The position numbers were made by a program, and so were the translations under genes. From the NCBI GenBank assembly GCA_004293725.1, contig REAW01000006.1, forward strand, positions 246,167 through 310,166: DNA of 64,000 nucleotides. The letters are read 5' to 3'. Under the pieces are notes generated by a model. It was not told the origin of the DNA. It saw nothing but the letters and a program-made list of their open reading frames with translations, and did no database searches. Shown in pieces: positions 21,893 through 26,564 of this stretch; position 1 is the stretch's first letter; every line of letters begins with the position of its first letter. This DNA comes from Curvibacter sp. (lineage in GTDB: Bacteria; Pseudomonadota; Gammaproteobacteria; Burkholderiales; Burkholderiaceae_C).

Positions 21893-22462
21893 TCAGGCCA
21901 GCAGAACGAATACACCCAGCCCGGCGAATATCAGCGCTGATACGACGTGCACCATACGCAGAGGTACCAGGCGCGTCATGCGCTCGCCCAGCCAAACCAC
22001 GGGTGCATTGGCCAGCATCATGCCCAGCGTGGTTCCTGCCACCACCCACAGATAGGCGTTGTATTTGGCGGCGAGCATGACAGTGGCAATCTGCGTTTTG
22101 TCGCCCATTTCGGCCAGAAAGAAGGCGACGACAGTGGTGCCGAATACGCCCCAGCGCGGCTGCGTATCCGTGCCTTCGTCGTCCATGGTGTCCGGGATCA
22201 GCATCCACACTGCCATGGCGATGAATGAGCCTCCCAGTATCCAGCGCAGGGTGGTGGGGCCGAGCACGGTTGTAACCCAGGCGCCCAGCGCGCCTGCCAT
22301 GGCGTGGTTGGCTACGGTGGCCACCAGGATGCCCCAAACGATAGGCCAAGGCTTGCGAAACCGCGCAGCCAGGATAAGGGCGAGCAGCTGGGTTTTGTCG
22401 CCCATTTCTGCGAGTGCAACGATACCGGTGGAGAGGAGAAAAGCTTCCATGATGAGGTCCAT
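21893..22462 (-). CDS. GDT1/UPF0016 (TMEM165-like) family cation (probably Mn2+) exporter
   Basis: Two repeats of the ALAEMGDKTQLL / FLAEMGDKTQIA signature. Confidence 0.93.
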   Translation of the reverse strand: MDLIMEAFLLSTGIVALAEMGDKTQLLALILAARFRKPWPIVWGILVATVANHAMAGALGAWVTTVLGPTTLRWILGGSFIAMAVWMLIPDTMDDEGTDTQPRWGVFGTTVVAFFLAEMGDKTQIATVMLAAKYNAYLWVVAGTTLGMMLANAPVVWLGERMTRLVPLRMVHVVSALIFAGLGVFVLLA

Positions 22463-22645
22463 GGCCGGGGACCTACCTATGACTGCACGACACCCCCGGC
22501 CGAAATCAGAGGCGTGCAGTCAAAGGTCTCGCCAAGGCCCGCGTTGCGGGCCTTGCTTGCGCCATGCATGCCGTTGCCGACACCACAAGTCTGTTGACGC
22601 AAGCCCCTCTCAATGAAGAAGGGCGGCTACTCCCCAATGACAGCC
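22463..22645 (-). promoter_or_regulatory. yybP-ykoY-type (Mn2+) riboswitch leader
   Basis: Minus strand contains GGGGAGTAGCC (22635-22625) and multiple helices directly upstream of a GDT1-family gene. Confidence 0.75.
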
Positions 22646-23075
22646 TTAATTGTAACTTCCAGCCTACCGCAACACAATCTTTCAGTTTGGCGTGGGTTTG
22701 TGATTGATTCATGTACGGATTAGTCTGCTGCGGGACGATCCCTATACCCTTCTAGGTTGTAAACCTCAGTTACCAAGGGATCTGGATTTACTCGCGGGAA
22801 CCTTGTCGATTGACTGTGAACCACACATTACACCTACGCCTAAGTCGACGCGTCCCAGCGGATTACACAAGCTTCTAAAGGCGAGTTACCCATTTGCGTC
22901 GGCGGCAAATGCTTCGCGCATCTTCAGGCTTTGCTCGGAATCGTCAATTCCCACTACCAAAGGGCTCAACAACCTGCGAGCCATCGCGAGGGTTTGTACT
23001 TTCATTGGTGCGTCCTGAGCAAGCTACTCAGGGGCATACGAATCGCGGGCCAAATTGGGAATTTTCTTCATTGCC

Positions 23076-23564
23076 CTAAGGCCTCAACCGGCGGCGCAAA
23101 AGAGGGCCGACCGACCACTGGCCACACCCATACAGCACCAAAGCCGCCAACAGCACGCCCCAAGTCAGATGCTGCTGCAGCGCAGCCGGCGCGATTTCAG
23201 CCAGCGCCAGCACGGCCACCCCATTGATCAGGCTCAGTCCGATAGAGGCAAATCGCCCGGCCAATCCGAGCACCAAGAGCACCGGCAAGACCAACTCGCC
23301 CGCCGTGCCCAGTACGGCGGCTACTGCGGGGGAGAGCAAAGGCACGTTGTATTCATTTGCAAACAGTAGCAGCGTGATGTCCCAATCCCTTATCTTGGTA
23401 AGGCCTGCCAAGAAAAACACCTGGGCCACGTACAACCTCGCCAGCAATGCCGCCAGTGGCTGCAACGCATTGAGGCCATGCTCTAGGCCGTCCCATAGGG
23501 CTAGGGCGCGCGATGCCAAGGATAGGCTGGGGGAGTGCATGAGGGGCCTAGTGGTGGGATGCAT
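23076..23564 (-). CDS. DoxX-family membrane protein (bufferin-locus associated)
   Basis: LLARLYVAQVFFLAGLTKIRDW...FANEYNVPLL; downstream of DUF2063 gene. Confidence 0.88.
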   Translation of the reverse strand: MHPTTRPLMHSPSLSLASRALALWDGLEHGLNALQPLAALLARLYVAQVFFLAGLTKIRDWDITLLLFANEYNVPLLSPAVAAVLGTAGELVLPVLLVLGLAGRFASIGLSLINGVAVLALAEIAPAALQQHLTWGVLLAALVLYGCGQWSVGPLLRRRLRP

Positions 23565-23582
23565 TGTGAAAAGTGAAAAGAG

Positions 23583-24353
23583 TCAAAGGGGATGGACGGC
23601 CATCAGCAGTCCAGTTTCTATGGCTTCTGAGAGCCAATTGTTGATTTCCAGTTGCGGCGCCGCGTCTATTGCAGCGCCCAGTGTTAGGTTCTGCAACAAC
23701 GCGGACACAAACCCTGCCTCGCCGGGCTGTGCATTCCGCACACGCGGACAGTACCCTTGGCGCCAGACCACTACGTCTTCGGCATGGCCGTTGCGCAGCA
23801 AGGTAGCGGCTTGTGTCATGGTTACGCCGTCATCCCTATGCGCCCGCACCAAGCTGGCGATGGGCCAAGGGCTGCAAATTACTGCAGTACCGGGCGCCAA
23901 TTGGACGGTCAGCGCATCCAGATCGTGGCTCCCCAGAAGCGCCAGGGTGGCGGGCTGAAGCGCAGCGTCTGCCGCTCCAGTGCAGGTGTGCAGCGCCCAC
24001 TCCACCCGCGCAACGTCGGCCAGGTAAGGCTCGTCGGCCAGTTGCACGCTGGCGGCCACAAACTCAGCCAGGGTGTCACCCCATTGCGCCATATCTCCGC
24101 ATTGCGGTGGCGTGGCGTGCCACAACGCCCGCGCCAAGGCTGAAAAACTTTCGTCTCCCAGCATTTGGGCGAGCACGGGGTACGCCGCCAGCAGCGCCCG
24201 TTCTGCGAGGGCGTGGCCATTTGCCTTATAGACTTTTAGGCCTCTGACGCCCATGGAATCTGCGCAAACAGCTATATTTCTTATAGCAAATTCTGATGCG
24301 GGCAACAATAGGCCTTTTAGCAAGGCTTGCTGCTGCTGTTCCAACACGCTCAT
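23583..24353 (-). CDS. DUF2063 / HvfC-BufC family protein
   Basis: [16 protein letters not shown]...[42 protein letters not shown] overlap with the upstream DUF692 gene. Confidence 0.88.
24271..24287. repeat. Dispersed 17-nt palindrome copy
   Basis: GCTATATTTCTTATAGC preceded by TGCGCAAACA, inside the DUF2063 gene. Confidence 0.6.
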
Positions 24354-25282
24354 GCCACAGCCTCCCTTGCTAAGCCGTTTTGCGCCGACTGCGCCGCACG
24401 GCGCGCGATGGCCGCCTCTTCCAGCAAAACGTCCAGTTCGGGAACATCGGTATCCCACTCCACCAGAGTGGGTACAGGGCCAAAGCGCGCAAGGGCGTGC
24501 CGATGCAGCGCCCACACTGCGGGGCTGACGCGACTGCCGTGGTCGTCAATCACGATGTCACCATGCACATCGGCCACATGGCAGTGGCCGGCAACGTGTA
24601 TTTCGCCCACCGCATCCGGTGGAATGGCGTCGAGCCAGTCGCGGCAGACCTGCAGCGGGTCCGACAACAGGCCTGCCAACTCAGCATTGCGGGCGTTGAC
24701 ATAGATGTTGTTGACGTCTACCAGAAGTAGACAGCCAGTACGCCGGGCCATGGTGGCCAGAAATTCGGTTTCGGGCCAGTCCTGCGCACCTGCTCCGTTC
24801 CAACGCACGTAGGCAGACAGGTTTTCCACCATGAAGCGGCGCTGTAAACGCTCTTGCACTTGGTCCACATGGCGACACAACACATCCAAGGCTTCGTCAG
24901 AAAACGGGATGGGCAGCAGATCAGCGCCATGTACCGTCTGGGTACCCAGTATTCCGCGTGCAAAGCACGCATGGTCACTCACCCGCACGGGGTTCACCTG
25001 TCGGACCAAATCGGCGAGTTGATCGAGATGCCAAGGGTCCAAGCCCACGGCCGACCCCAAAGACAGGCCGACGCCATGCAAACTGATGGGGTACTGCTCG
25101 CGGGCCCGCATCAACACCGCTAAGGCCGCACCGCCACTAGCAAAGAAGTTTTCTGAATGAACTTCCAAAAAATCCAATGCGGGCTGCCGCTCCAGCAGCT
25201 CCGTGTAATGGGGGTGCCGCCACCCGATGCCCACTTCGGCCTTTCGGGCAGGCGCTGGCCTGTCACGCGGGGTGGCAGCCAT
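24350..25282 (-). CDS. DUF692 / MNIO-family multinuclear non-heme iron oxidase (BufB/HvfB-like)
   Basis: [62 protein letters not shown]. Confidence 0.93.
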
Positions 25283-25288
25283 GGGGAA

Positions 25289-25558
25289 TCAGCTTTTCAT
25301 TTTCTTGGCTTCTTCCATGGACATTCCCTTCATGTCTTTGCATGTGCCCTTGGCGACGTACTTCCACTCACCTTTGTCGTTGTCCACTTTGGACTGCCCA
25401 GCACAAGAGTGTGTACCGGCCAGATTGGCGCAGTCGTTTTGTCCTGCCTTGGCAATTCCAAAGCATTTCTCTTTTTCTTGTGCCGCCACGGGGGCGGATA
25501 CCAAAGCCAATGTCATGAGACTGGCGGCTGCGGTTGCGATCAAGGCACGTTGGTTCAT
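25289..25558 (-). CDS. DUF2282 / BufA1-like RiPP precursor (bufferin)
   Basis: Signal peptide plus [43 protein letters not shown] with four spaced cysteines. Confidence 0.92.
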
Positions 25559-25770
25559 GTGATAACTCCTAAGTTTGAAAGGAAAACAACCAGATGGGCC
25601 CGACACACCATTGCGCCAGATTGCTGGTTATGCCTTTGTCCGGCCAAACATACGGTTTCTTACACCAGTGCATTGCATTTATTTCTAGACAAGGGTTTAC
25701 CCTTTTTTGGAAAGGCTTACCGACACAACGGAGCCTTACACTGCGCCCACTCCATCTTGAAAAAATCGCT

Positions 25771-26340
25771 ATGCTTAGTTTTGAACTGCAGGTCGCCGAA
25801 TTGCGTGATTACCTACTCAGGTTCGCGCGCCTGCAATTGCGCAATGAAGCGTGGGCAGAAGATGCGGTTTCCGAGACAGTTTTGGCAGCCATTGCGAAAC
25901 CACAGGGATTTCAGAGCCGCTCACAACTCAAAACTTGGTTGGTTGGCATCCTCAAACACAAGATCATCGACGCTTTACGTCACCACAGCCGGGAAGCCAC
26001 TACCTTGGATGCCAACGCTGACAACCAAGTCGACCCTTTGGATCAAATGGCCTTCAAGCCGGATGGGCACTTTTCCGAAATGCCTTCAGAATGGGGCAAT
26101 CCAGAGCAAGACGCGAGCCGCCGGCAGTTTTTTGAGATTCTGGAAGCTTGCGCCAGCAAATTGCCTGCTGTACAGGGCCGCTTGTTCCTGATGCGGGAAT
26201 GGTTGGAGCTCTCGAGTGAAGAAATATGTAAGGAACTAGAGCTCACACCGACAAACCTGTATGTGCAACTGCACCGCGCCCGACTCCGATTGCGCGAATG
26301 CCTAGAGCTGCACTGGTTTGCAAAGGCCGTTCAACCATGA
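25771..26340 (+). CDS. ECF-type RNA polymerase sigma factor
   Basis: Region 2 (LRLQLRNEAWAEDAVSETVLAA) and region 4 (LSSEEICKELELTPTNLYVQLHRARLRLRECL). Confidence 0.9.
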   Translation: MLSFELQVAELRDYLLRFARLQLRNEAWAEDAVSETVLAAIAKPQGFQSRSQLKTWLVGILKHKIIDALRHHSREATTLDANADNQVDPLDQMAFKPDGHFSEMPSEWGNPEQDASRRQFFEILEACASKLPAVQGRLFLMREWLELSSEEICKELELTPTNLYVQLHRARLRLRECLELHWFAKAVQP

Positions 26341-26564
26341 TCCCATTCCGAAAAAGCTGCAAACAAGCCGCAGCCCTTCTTGTCGCCAGAGAAGACCGGC
26401 CGCTGGATATCAGCGAGCGTTTAGCGCTACGTTTGCACCTATTCGCGTGTGCAGCCTGCCCCTCATTTGAAAGTCAAATATTGACGATGCGCAACAGCAT
26501 GCGACAGTGGCGCAGTTACACCGATGTCGAGTCAGATCCAGATTCAGGTGTAAAAAAATCATAA
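26337..26564 (+). CDS. Small zinc-finger anti-sigma factor (zf-HC2-like)
   Basis: LHLFACAACPSF (H-x3-C-x2-C) and ATGA overlap with the sigma gene. Confidence 0.75.
   Translation: MIPFRKSCKQAAALLVAREDRPLDISERLALRLHLFACAACPSFESQILTMRNSMRQWRSYTDVESDPDSGVKKS

Follow-up and report, generated by a model that had tools for sequence, protein, structure and literature searches.

A Buf1 bufferin operon of Curvibacter sp. beside a zinc-type ECF switch with a predicted anti-sigma promoter embedded in the sigma gene

When does a bacterium make a copper-buffering peptide, and what brings its production to an end? This question is raised by a locus of Curvibacter sp. lying in a 64,000-nucleotide stretch of contig REAW01000006.1 (hereafter the window), where an operon for a ribosomally synthesized and post-translationally modified peptide (RiPP) stands back to back with genes for an extracytoplasmic function (ECF) sigma factor and an anti-sigma protein. 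The initial annotation had recognized a bufferin-type locus built around a multinuclear non-haem iron-dependent oxidative enzyme (MNIO) and divergent from the sigma/anti-sigma pair, and this identification is borne out: the family models and the gene order agree with it, and the iron ligands are invariant. In our judgement, it is probable that this Buf1 bufferin operon is under a thiol/zinc-sensing ECF switch, with a promoter for the anti-sigma gene embedded in the sigma gene as its brake. The locus comprises the following features (coordinates in the window):

23076..23564, minus strand: DoxX-family membrane protein (HvfX/GigT-like), final gene of the buf operon (PF07681, 1.2e-12)
23583..24353, minus strand: BufC, MNIO partner with DUF2063 and of RiPP recognition element (RRE) type (PF09836, 2.1e-14)
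24350..25282, minus strand: BufB, MNIO bufferin maturase (DUF692, PF05114, 1.9e-92; NCBIfam NF050167, MNIO_BufB, 317.5 bits, cut-off 310)
25289..25558, minus strand: BufA1, DUF2282 bufferin precursor (PF10048, 1.2e-25)
25635..25664, minus strand: predicted ECF promoter of bufA, TGTAAG-N18-GACAAA, 76 nt upstream of the bufA ATG
25771..26340, plus strand: ECF sigma factor of the PRK12520/TIGR02943 family (NF009173, 287 bits, cut-off 255; TIGR02943, 225 bits, cut-off 162)
26227..26255, plus strand: predicted intragenic ECF promoter, TGTAAGGA-N15-GACAAA, in sigma region-4 codons 153-162 (exact pattern match)
26337..26564, plus strand: 75-residue zinc-type (ZAS) anti-sigma protein (zf-HC2; NF052368, 63.3 bits, cut-off 50)

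We assigned to the ZAS class those anti-sigma proteins that are soluble, carry the pattern C/H-X23-26-H-X3-C-X2-C and are encoded directly downstream of an ECF sigma factor. The anti-sigma protein of the window, which has no evident transmembrane segment, belongs to this MseR/HrsE/RsrA type by its ligand spacing, by its score above the NF052368 cut-off and by the ATGA overlap of its start codon with the sigma stop. Its pattern, C8-X25-H34-X3-C38-X2-C41, contains the H-x3-C-x2-C signature that the initial annotation had given for a small anti-sigma protein; the four ligands are invariant in aligned relatives, and their spacing is identical to that of MseR (C4, H30, C34 and C37; PMC2893595). Among 80 named Buf1 loci, together with that of Cupriavidus, 35 have a ZAS regulator, 7 an NrsF regulator and none both. 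A large survey of bufferins searched for, and named, only NrsF anti-sigmas at Buf1 loci (PMC12452194); the switch class found here differs from the one reported, being ZAS and not NrsF. Orthology of the window pair with RpoQ/RsqA of Cupriavidus was also rejected: RsqA is an NrsF membrane protein (PF06532, 6.5e-73) and RpoQ falls in PRK12536, whereas the window combines a PRK12520/TIGR02943 sigma factor with a ZAS protein, and the RpoQ-type sigma and NrsF protein that would place it in the GIG/RpoQ-RsqA group are absent. Two loci of relatives present other states of the regulator. At a Comamonadaceae Buf1 locus with a precursor 75% identical (L029), an RpoQ/NrsF pair replaces the ZAS pair, which is a natural regulator swap. 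At a second locus (L005) no sigma factor is detectable and the anti-sigma is reduced to a 39% fragment, yet bufA and its promoter motif remain; the regulator has possibly decayed there.

The region between bufA and the sigma gene is poorly conserved save for TGTAAG(A)A and GACT(A)A, which are kept at a fixed separation. In relatives with a ZAS pair, the conserved promoter ahead of bufA reads TGTAAGAA-N15-GACTAA. The defined pattern faces bufA at 28 of the 35 loci with a ZAS-linked sigma factor (mean of 0.01 in shuffles), and the gap from TGTAAG to GAC is 17 bases in 25 of these 28 matches. It is nearly absent with other regulator classes (2 of 41 loci, L041-L081), and the swapped locus L029 likewise has no TGTAAG promoter. 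The motif agrees in its -35 core, core bases and spacing with the sigmaE consensus of Neisseria meningitidis, GTMAGBWTT-N12/13-CGTCTAAH (PMC2893595). Autoregulation of the sigma gene was also sought, and no such promoter facing it was found at any of the 35 ZAS-sigma loci or of the 93 loci overall. Near the sigma start (around 25720-25750), relatives share (A)GTGTA(C/A)GG, which gives TACACT on the sigma strand; this is possibly the housekeeping -10 element of the sigma gene.

The bufA promoter has counterparts elsewhere. Scanning 31 relatives and 201 family genomes for exact occurrences of TGTAAGAA-N14-16-GACTMA, with the reversed pattern as control, gave 38 matches versus 1 (about 230 genomes). 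The genes downstream are msrP (9), bufA (9), DUF1223 (5), a solute-binding protein (3), a secreted thioredoxin (2-3), msrA (1) and a few others. A close sigma orthologue is present in 15 of the 20 genomes with the motif versus 75 of 181 others (Fisher p 0.008). In the host genome, near matches precede genes for a secreted thioredoxin-like protein, a peroxiredoxin-like protein, the same solute-binding protein and a YHS-domain-like protein whose score is under the Pfam cut-off; host matches to PF00174 were weak and were not retained, as they are probably not MsrP. As msrP, msrA, thioredoxin and further genes elsewhere have this motif ahead of them, the sigma factor probably runs a wider envelope-repair regulon, and the bufferin appears, from this motif distribution, to belong to an envelope-oxidation regulon whose content agrees with the Neisseria sigmaE, Haemophilus RpoE2 and Caulobacter sigmaF regulons. 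The earlier description of a self-contained sensing and producing module holds insofar as a conserved ECF promoter faces bufA, but not insofar as the motif also precedes msrP, msrA and thioredoxin genes elsewhere. One conserved promoter would tie copper-buffering peptides to the repair of oxidized periplasmic proteins, which permits a guess at when bufferins are made. A gene for a secreted TlpA-like thioredoxin lies between the sigma gene and bufA, on the bufA strand, in many relatives (L019, L022, L127, L149, L140, L128 and others) and carries its own copy of the ECF motif in several of these; the host genome encodes such a protein at another place (L186), behind a motif with one mismatch.

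Of the two exact matches to the pattern in the host genome, one falls inside the sigma open reading frame, where it coincides with the region-4 (helix-turn-helix) codons for CKELELTPTN, 81 nt before the anti-sigma ATG. We rejected the idea of a chance match, as the motif sits at the same place in relatives, and codon tests exclude protein conservation as its cause. The form TGTMAG-N17-GACNA is present in 55 of 64 sigma genes versus 8.5 +/- 2.5 expected when synonymous codons are shuffled within each gene, and the same test returned no motif (0) on the antisense strand. In an order-wide set, gathered by the anti-sigma model and not by the sigma factor and thus independent of the first, the motif occurs in 17 of 30 genes versus 3.2 +/- 1.6 expected by codon shuffling.

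Could this motif simply follow from the conserved protein sequence CKELxLTPTN, without any promoter? Conservation of the amino acids concerned is indeed strong, and the DNA-reading helix is where the -10 codons fall; the constraint, however, falls on silent positions. The invariant Cys153 is encoded by TGT in 57 of 63 sigma orthologues, where TGC is the preferred codon: the other cysteines of the same genes use TGT in 30 of 152 cases (about 20%), and those of the bufABC and anti-sigma genes in 99 of 541. Lys154 is always AAG (63 orthologues), a substitution of Lys by Gln at this codon uses CAG, which preserves the GTMAG form, and the third base of codon 160 is G in nearly all orthologues, irrespective of the residue (P, S, A or T). 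Ranked by synonymous bias among 178 codons, codon 153 comes first (z 13.8), codon 160 third (8.7) and codon 154 tenth (5.7). As codon shuffling yields 8.5 and not 55 motifs, we regard a by-product of the protein as improbable. (Synonymous bias is also strong at further codons of the sigma gene: CTC at L53 and L61 and a T-ending codon at L178.) A similarly low probability attaches, in our view, to a site at which the sigma-RNA polymerase would bind or pause, or to an element feeding a downstream gene, in place of a dedicated anti-sigma promoter. Holoenzyme is known to occupy some intragenic sites without transcribing from them, and at some order-wide loci an MNIO gene follows the anti-sigma gene in the same direction, so that the output of the element could extend beyond the anti-sigma gene. 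Nevertheless, it lies about as far from the anti-sigma ATG (81 nt) as the bufA promoter does from its own ATG (76 nt), and it is kept in Comamonadaceae, where the anti-sigma gene alone follows closely.

Two other explanations concern the locus as a whole. It might be a GIG-type copper (or gold) resistance module induced by periplasmic Cu or Au, the link to oxidation-repair genes being incidental. The gigPABT operon has the same gene order, a divergent sigma gene, induction by Cu and Au and a contribution to copper resistance (PMC10304878), and Buf1 products bind Cu. We nonetheless hold this to be rather unlikely, given that the regulators are not orthologous (a membrane NrsF protein with a PRK12536 sigma factor on one side, a ZAS protein with PRK12520 on the other) and that msrP, msrA and thioredoxin genes are marked by the motif as well. 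The initial annotation had further called the locus HvfABC-like, which would make it a RiPP locus of the oxazolin type. What stands of this likeness is the enzyme superfamily and the regulator class, the latter resembling that of Haemophilus and Neisseria, and MNIO, DUF2063 and DoxX proteins are indeed shared with HvfABC. The precursor is a DUF2282 protein of the Buf1 kind, not an HvfA with EGKCG repeats, and scores against the HvfB and HvfC models are far under the cut-offs (192 versus 360 and 22 versus 142 bits); we rejected HvfABC membership on these grounds, and an oxazolin locus, contradicted by the sequence, can barely be entertained.

The simplest reading of the intragenic motif is therefore a sigma-dependent promoter for the anti-sigma gene alone, comparable in style to sigH-rshA, predicted here from a motif and its codon constraint. 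From this embedded motif and the lack of such a promoter facing the sigma gene follows the prediction of a sigma-driven brake without positive autoregulation. At six order-wide loci (L159, L161, L163, L171, L172 and L184) the sigma, anti-sigma and MNIO genes are co-directional, and there the intragenic promoter might drive the RiPP genes too. More broadly, and with somewhat more caution than for the locus itself, we think it rather likely that ZAS-linked ECF sigma genes of Burkholderiales store their own sigma factor's promoter at silent positions of the codons for the promoter-reading helix, where it would be used only to produce more brake, and that Comamonadaceae bufferins are effectors of a self-limiting response to envelope oxidation. 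The predicted embedded promoter should be separable from the sigma protein: silent changes should abolish it and leave the protein unaltered.

The mechanism that we favour, an ECF switch limited by its own embedded anti-sigma promoter, would run as follows. At rest, the cytoplasmic ZAS protein would hold the sigma factor, as MseR and HrsE do theirs. No membrane segment is evident in this protein, so the signal has to arrive in the cytoplasm, either as oxidation of thiols or through thiophilic metals that take the place of zinc; the Zn-Cys site would come under attack from oxidants or thiophilic metal ions, and the sigma factor would be freed. The sigma-RNA polymerase would then start at TGTAAGAA-N15-GACTAA ahead of bufA. 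By analogy with characterized Buf1 members, BufB and BufC would modify BufA1 at its two central cysteines, giving thiooxazoles, and the peptide, exported by Sec, would bind and sequester copper in the periplasm. The same sigma factor may raise the repair of periplasmic methionine sulfoxide and thiols, as its motif in relatives suggests. Finally, the intragenic promoter copy would produce extra anti-sigma, damping or ending the response by negative feedback.

Several points weigh against this scheme. The bufA promoter of the window is itself a weak match (18-nt spacer, GACAAA). Near matches in the host genome (6) are not in excess of the control (12), and the host secreted msrB-msrA operon (L097, G000:C45) has no ECF motif upstream. 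Five of the 20 genomes with the exact motif have no close sigma orthologue, and other ECF sigma factors may therefore use it. Deletion of RpoQ, a different sigma factor, raised rather than lowered gig expression in Cupriavidus metallidurans (PMC10304878). The inducer could differ from that of Neisseria or Haemophilus; expression of meningococcal sigmaE is unaltered by oxidants (PMC2893595). Lastly, the host assembly (2.95 Mb, with the window forming the last part of a 310-kb contig) is 83% complete.

In its RiPP core the locus is a Buf1 bufferin operon of the usual, known kind, with a DUF2282 precursor, a BufB-type MNIO carrying its ligands, a DUF2063-RRE partner and a DoxX protein; the family searches proposed for DUF2282, DUF692 and DUF2063 returned all three (1.2e-25, 1.9e-92 and 2.1e-14). 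As first described, the precursor has four spaced cysteines (C32, C43, C52 and C73), the columns of which are conserved in aligned relatives and in C. metallidurans, and a Sec-type signal peptide (...SAPVAA|Q, as assessed by eye); in Buf1 precursors it is the central pair of cysteines that undergoes modification, the outer pair being joined in a disulfide (PMC12452194). The iron-binding residues of the DUF692 protein, on which the initial annotation had made its reading depend, were mapped through an alignment with 3BWW to the ligands of VcMbnB (H55, H91, E135, D165, N168, H194, D209, H211 and E238; PMC8888699). All nine predicted ligands are present in BufB (H69, H104, E153, D189, N192, H229, D246, H248 and E275) and invariant across 78 aligned sequences. 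A BufC profile found no match among PDB sequences, and only fold comparison linked this protein to MNIO partners: its AlphaFold model (pLDDT 93.1) is closest in Foldseek to TglI (8hi7, E 2.6e-5) and NGO1945 (3dee, E 5e-4), both MNIO partners, which gives the modelled BufC the MNIO-partner fold. The DoxX protein scores 50.3 bits against the NCBIfam HvfX model, under the cut-off of 80. BufB is the sole MNIO encoded in the host assembly, where no second gene was found (at 83% completeness).

Gene positions, minus-strand order, the ATGA overlap of the bufB stop with the bufC start and the gap of exactly 212 bp that separates bufA1 from the divergent sigma gene were all read in the sequence as first described. 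The layout, with a sigma factor at least 50% identical, is present in 34 of 80 named relatives, which excludes chance as its origin; the closest named relatives of the host are Rhodoferax and Curvibacter (Comamonadaceae). Many relatives share the genes that flank it, an RRM gene at one end and the GDT1 and metX genes at the opposite end, and the locus is therefore of long standing rather than newly inserted. Directly upstream of the gene for the GDT1-family cation exporter (21893-22462, minus strand) lies a manganese riboswitch (RF00080, 78.7 bits; 22454-22647, minus strand), and this unit adjoins the bufferin operon.

How does this locus compare with known systems? On sequence grounds, its regulation may be described as a variant that employs a ZAS switch and is linked with an envelope-oxidation regulon; the embedded anti-sigma promoter was not found described in this group, nor any such promoter outside Corynebacterium, in the part of the literature covered. 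The divergent layout itself is already published for gigPABT-rpoQ-rsqA of C. metallidurans (NC_007974, L082), which shares the order DUF2282-MNIO-DUF2063-DoxX and the divergent ECF sigma/anti-sigma pair and is Cu- and Au-inducible (PMC10304878), but has a PRK12536 sigma factor with membrane NrsF where the window has PRK12520/TIGR02943 with a soluble 75-residue ZAS protein. Caulobacter has the same four Buf1 genes in its bufferin 1 operon (CC3254-3257), which is controlled by an ECF sigma factor, sigmaF, whose regulon includes YedY/MsrP (PMC3511200); unlike in the window, the anti-sigma is membrane NrsF and the promoter GTAACC-N16-CGAA. The sigmaE-MseR pair of Neisseria has the same ZAS ligand spacing and nearly the same promoter, and its regulon comprises a DoxX/DUF692/DUF2063 (MNIO) operon and msrAB (PMC2893595, PMC3240639). 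However, its sigma and anti-sigma genes are autoregulated inside the operon and the precursor is of the EGKCG type, whereas the window has a divergent pair and no promoter facing sigma. RpoE2-HrsE of Haemophilus also includes a small cytoplasmic ZAS anti-sigma, and in H. influenzae the DoxX-DUF692-DUF2063 cluster and methionine sulfoxide reductases (msrAB, mtsZ) are RpoE2-dependent and induced by HOCl (PMC7907618); in Haemophilus, though, the sigma gene is unlinked from the hvf operon, which has an HvfA-type precursor. A precedent for the topology is sigH-rshA of Corynebacterium glutamicum. It differs in its actinobacterial sigma factor, in its promoter sequence and in having no bufferin, and we found no report of codon-level conservation there; as predicted for the window, a promoter for a ZAS anti-sigma lies within the sigma gene, and Northern blot and primer extension showed that this SigH-dependent promoter inside sigH drives rshA alone, as a negative feedback (PMC3489674).

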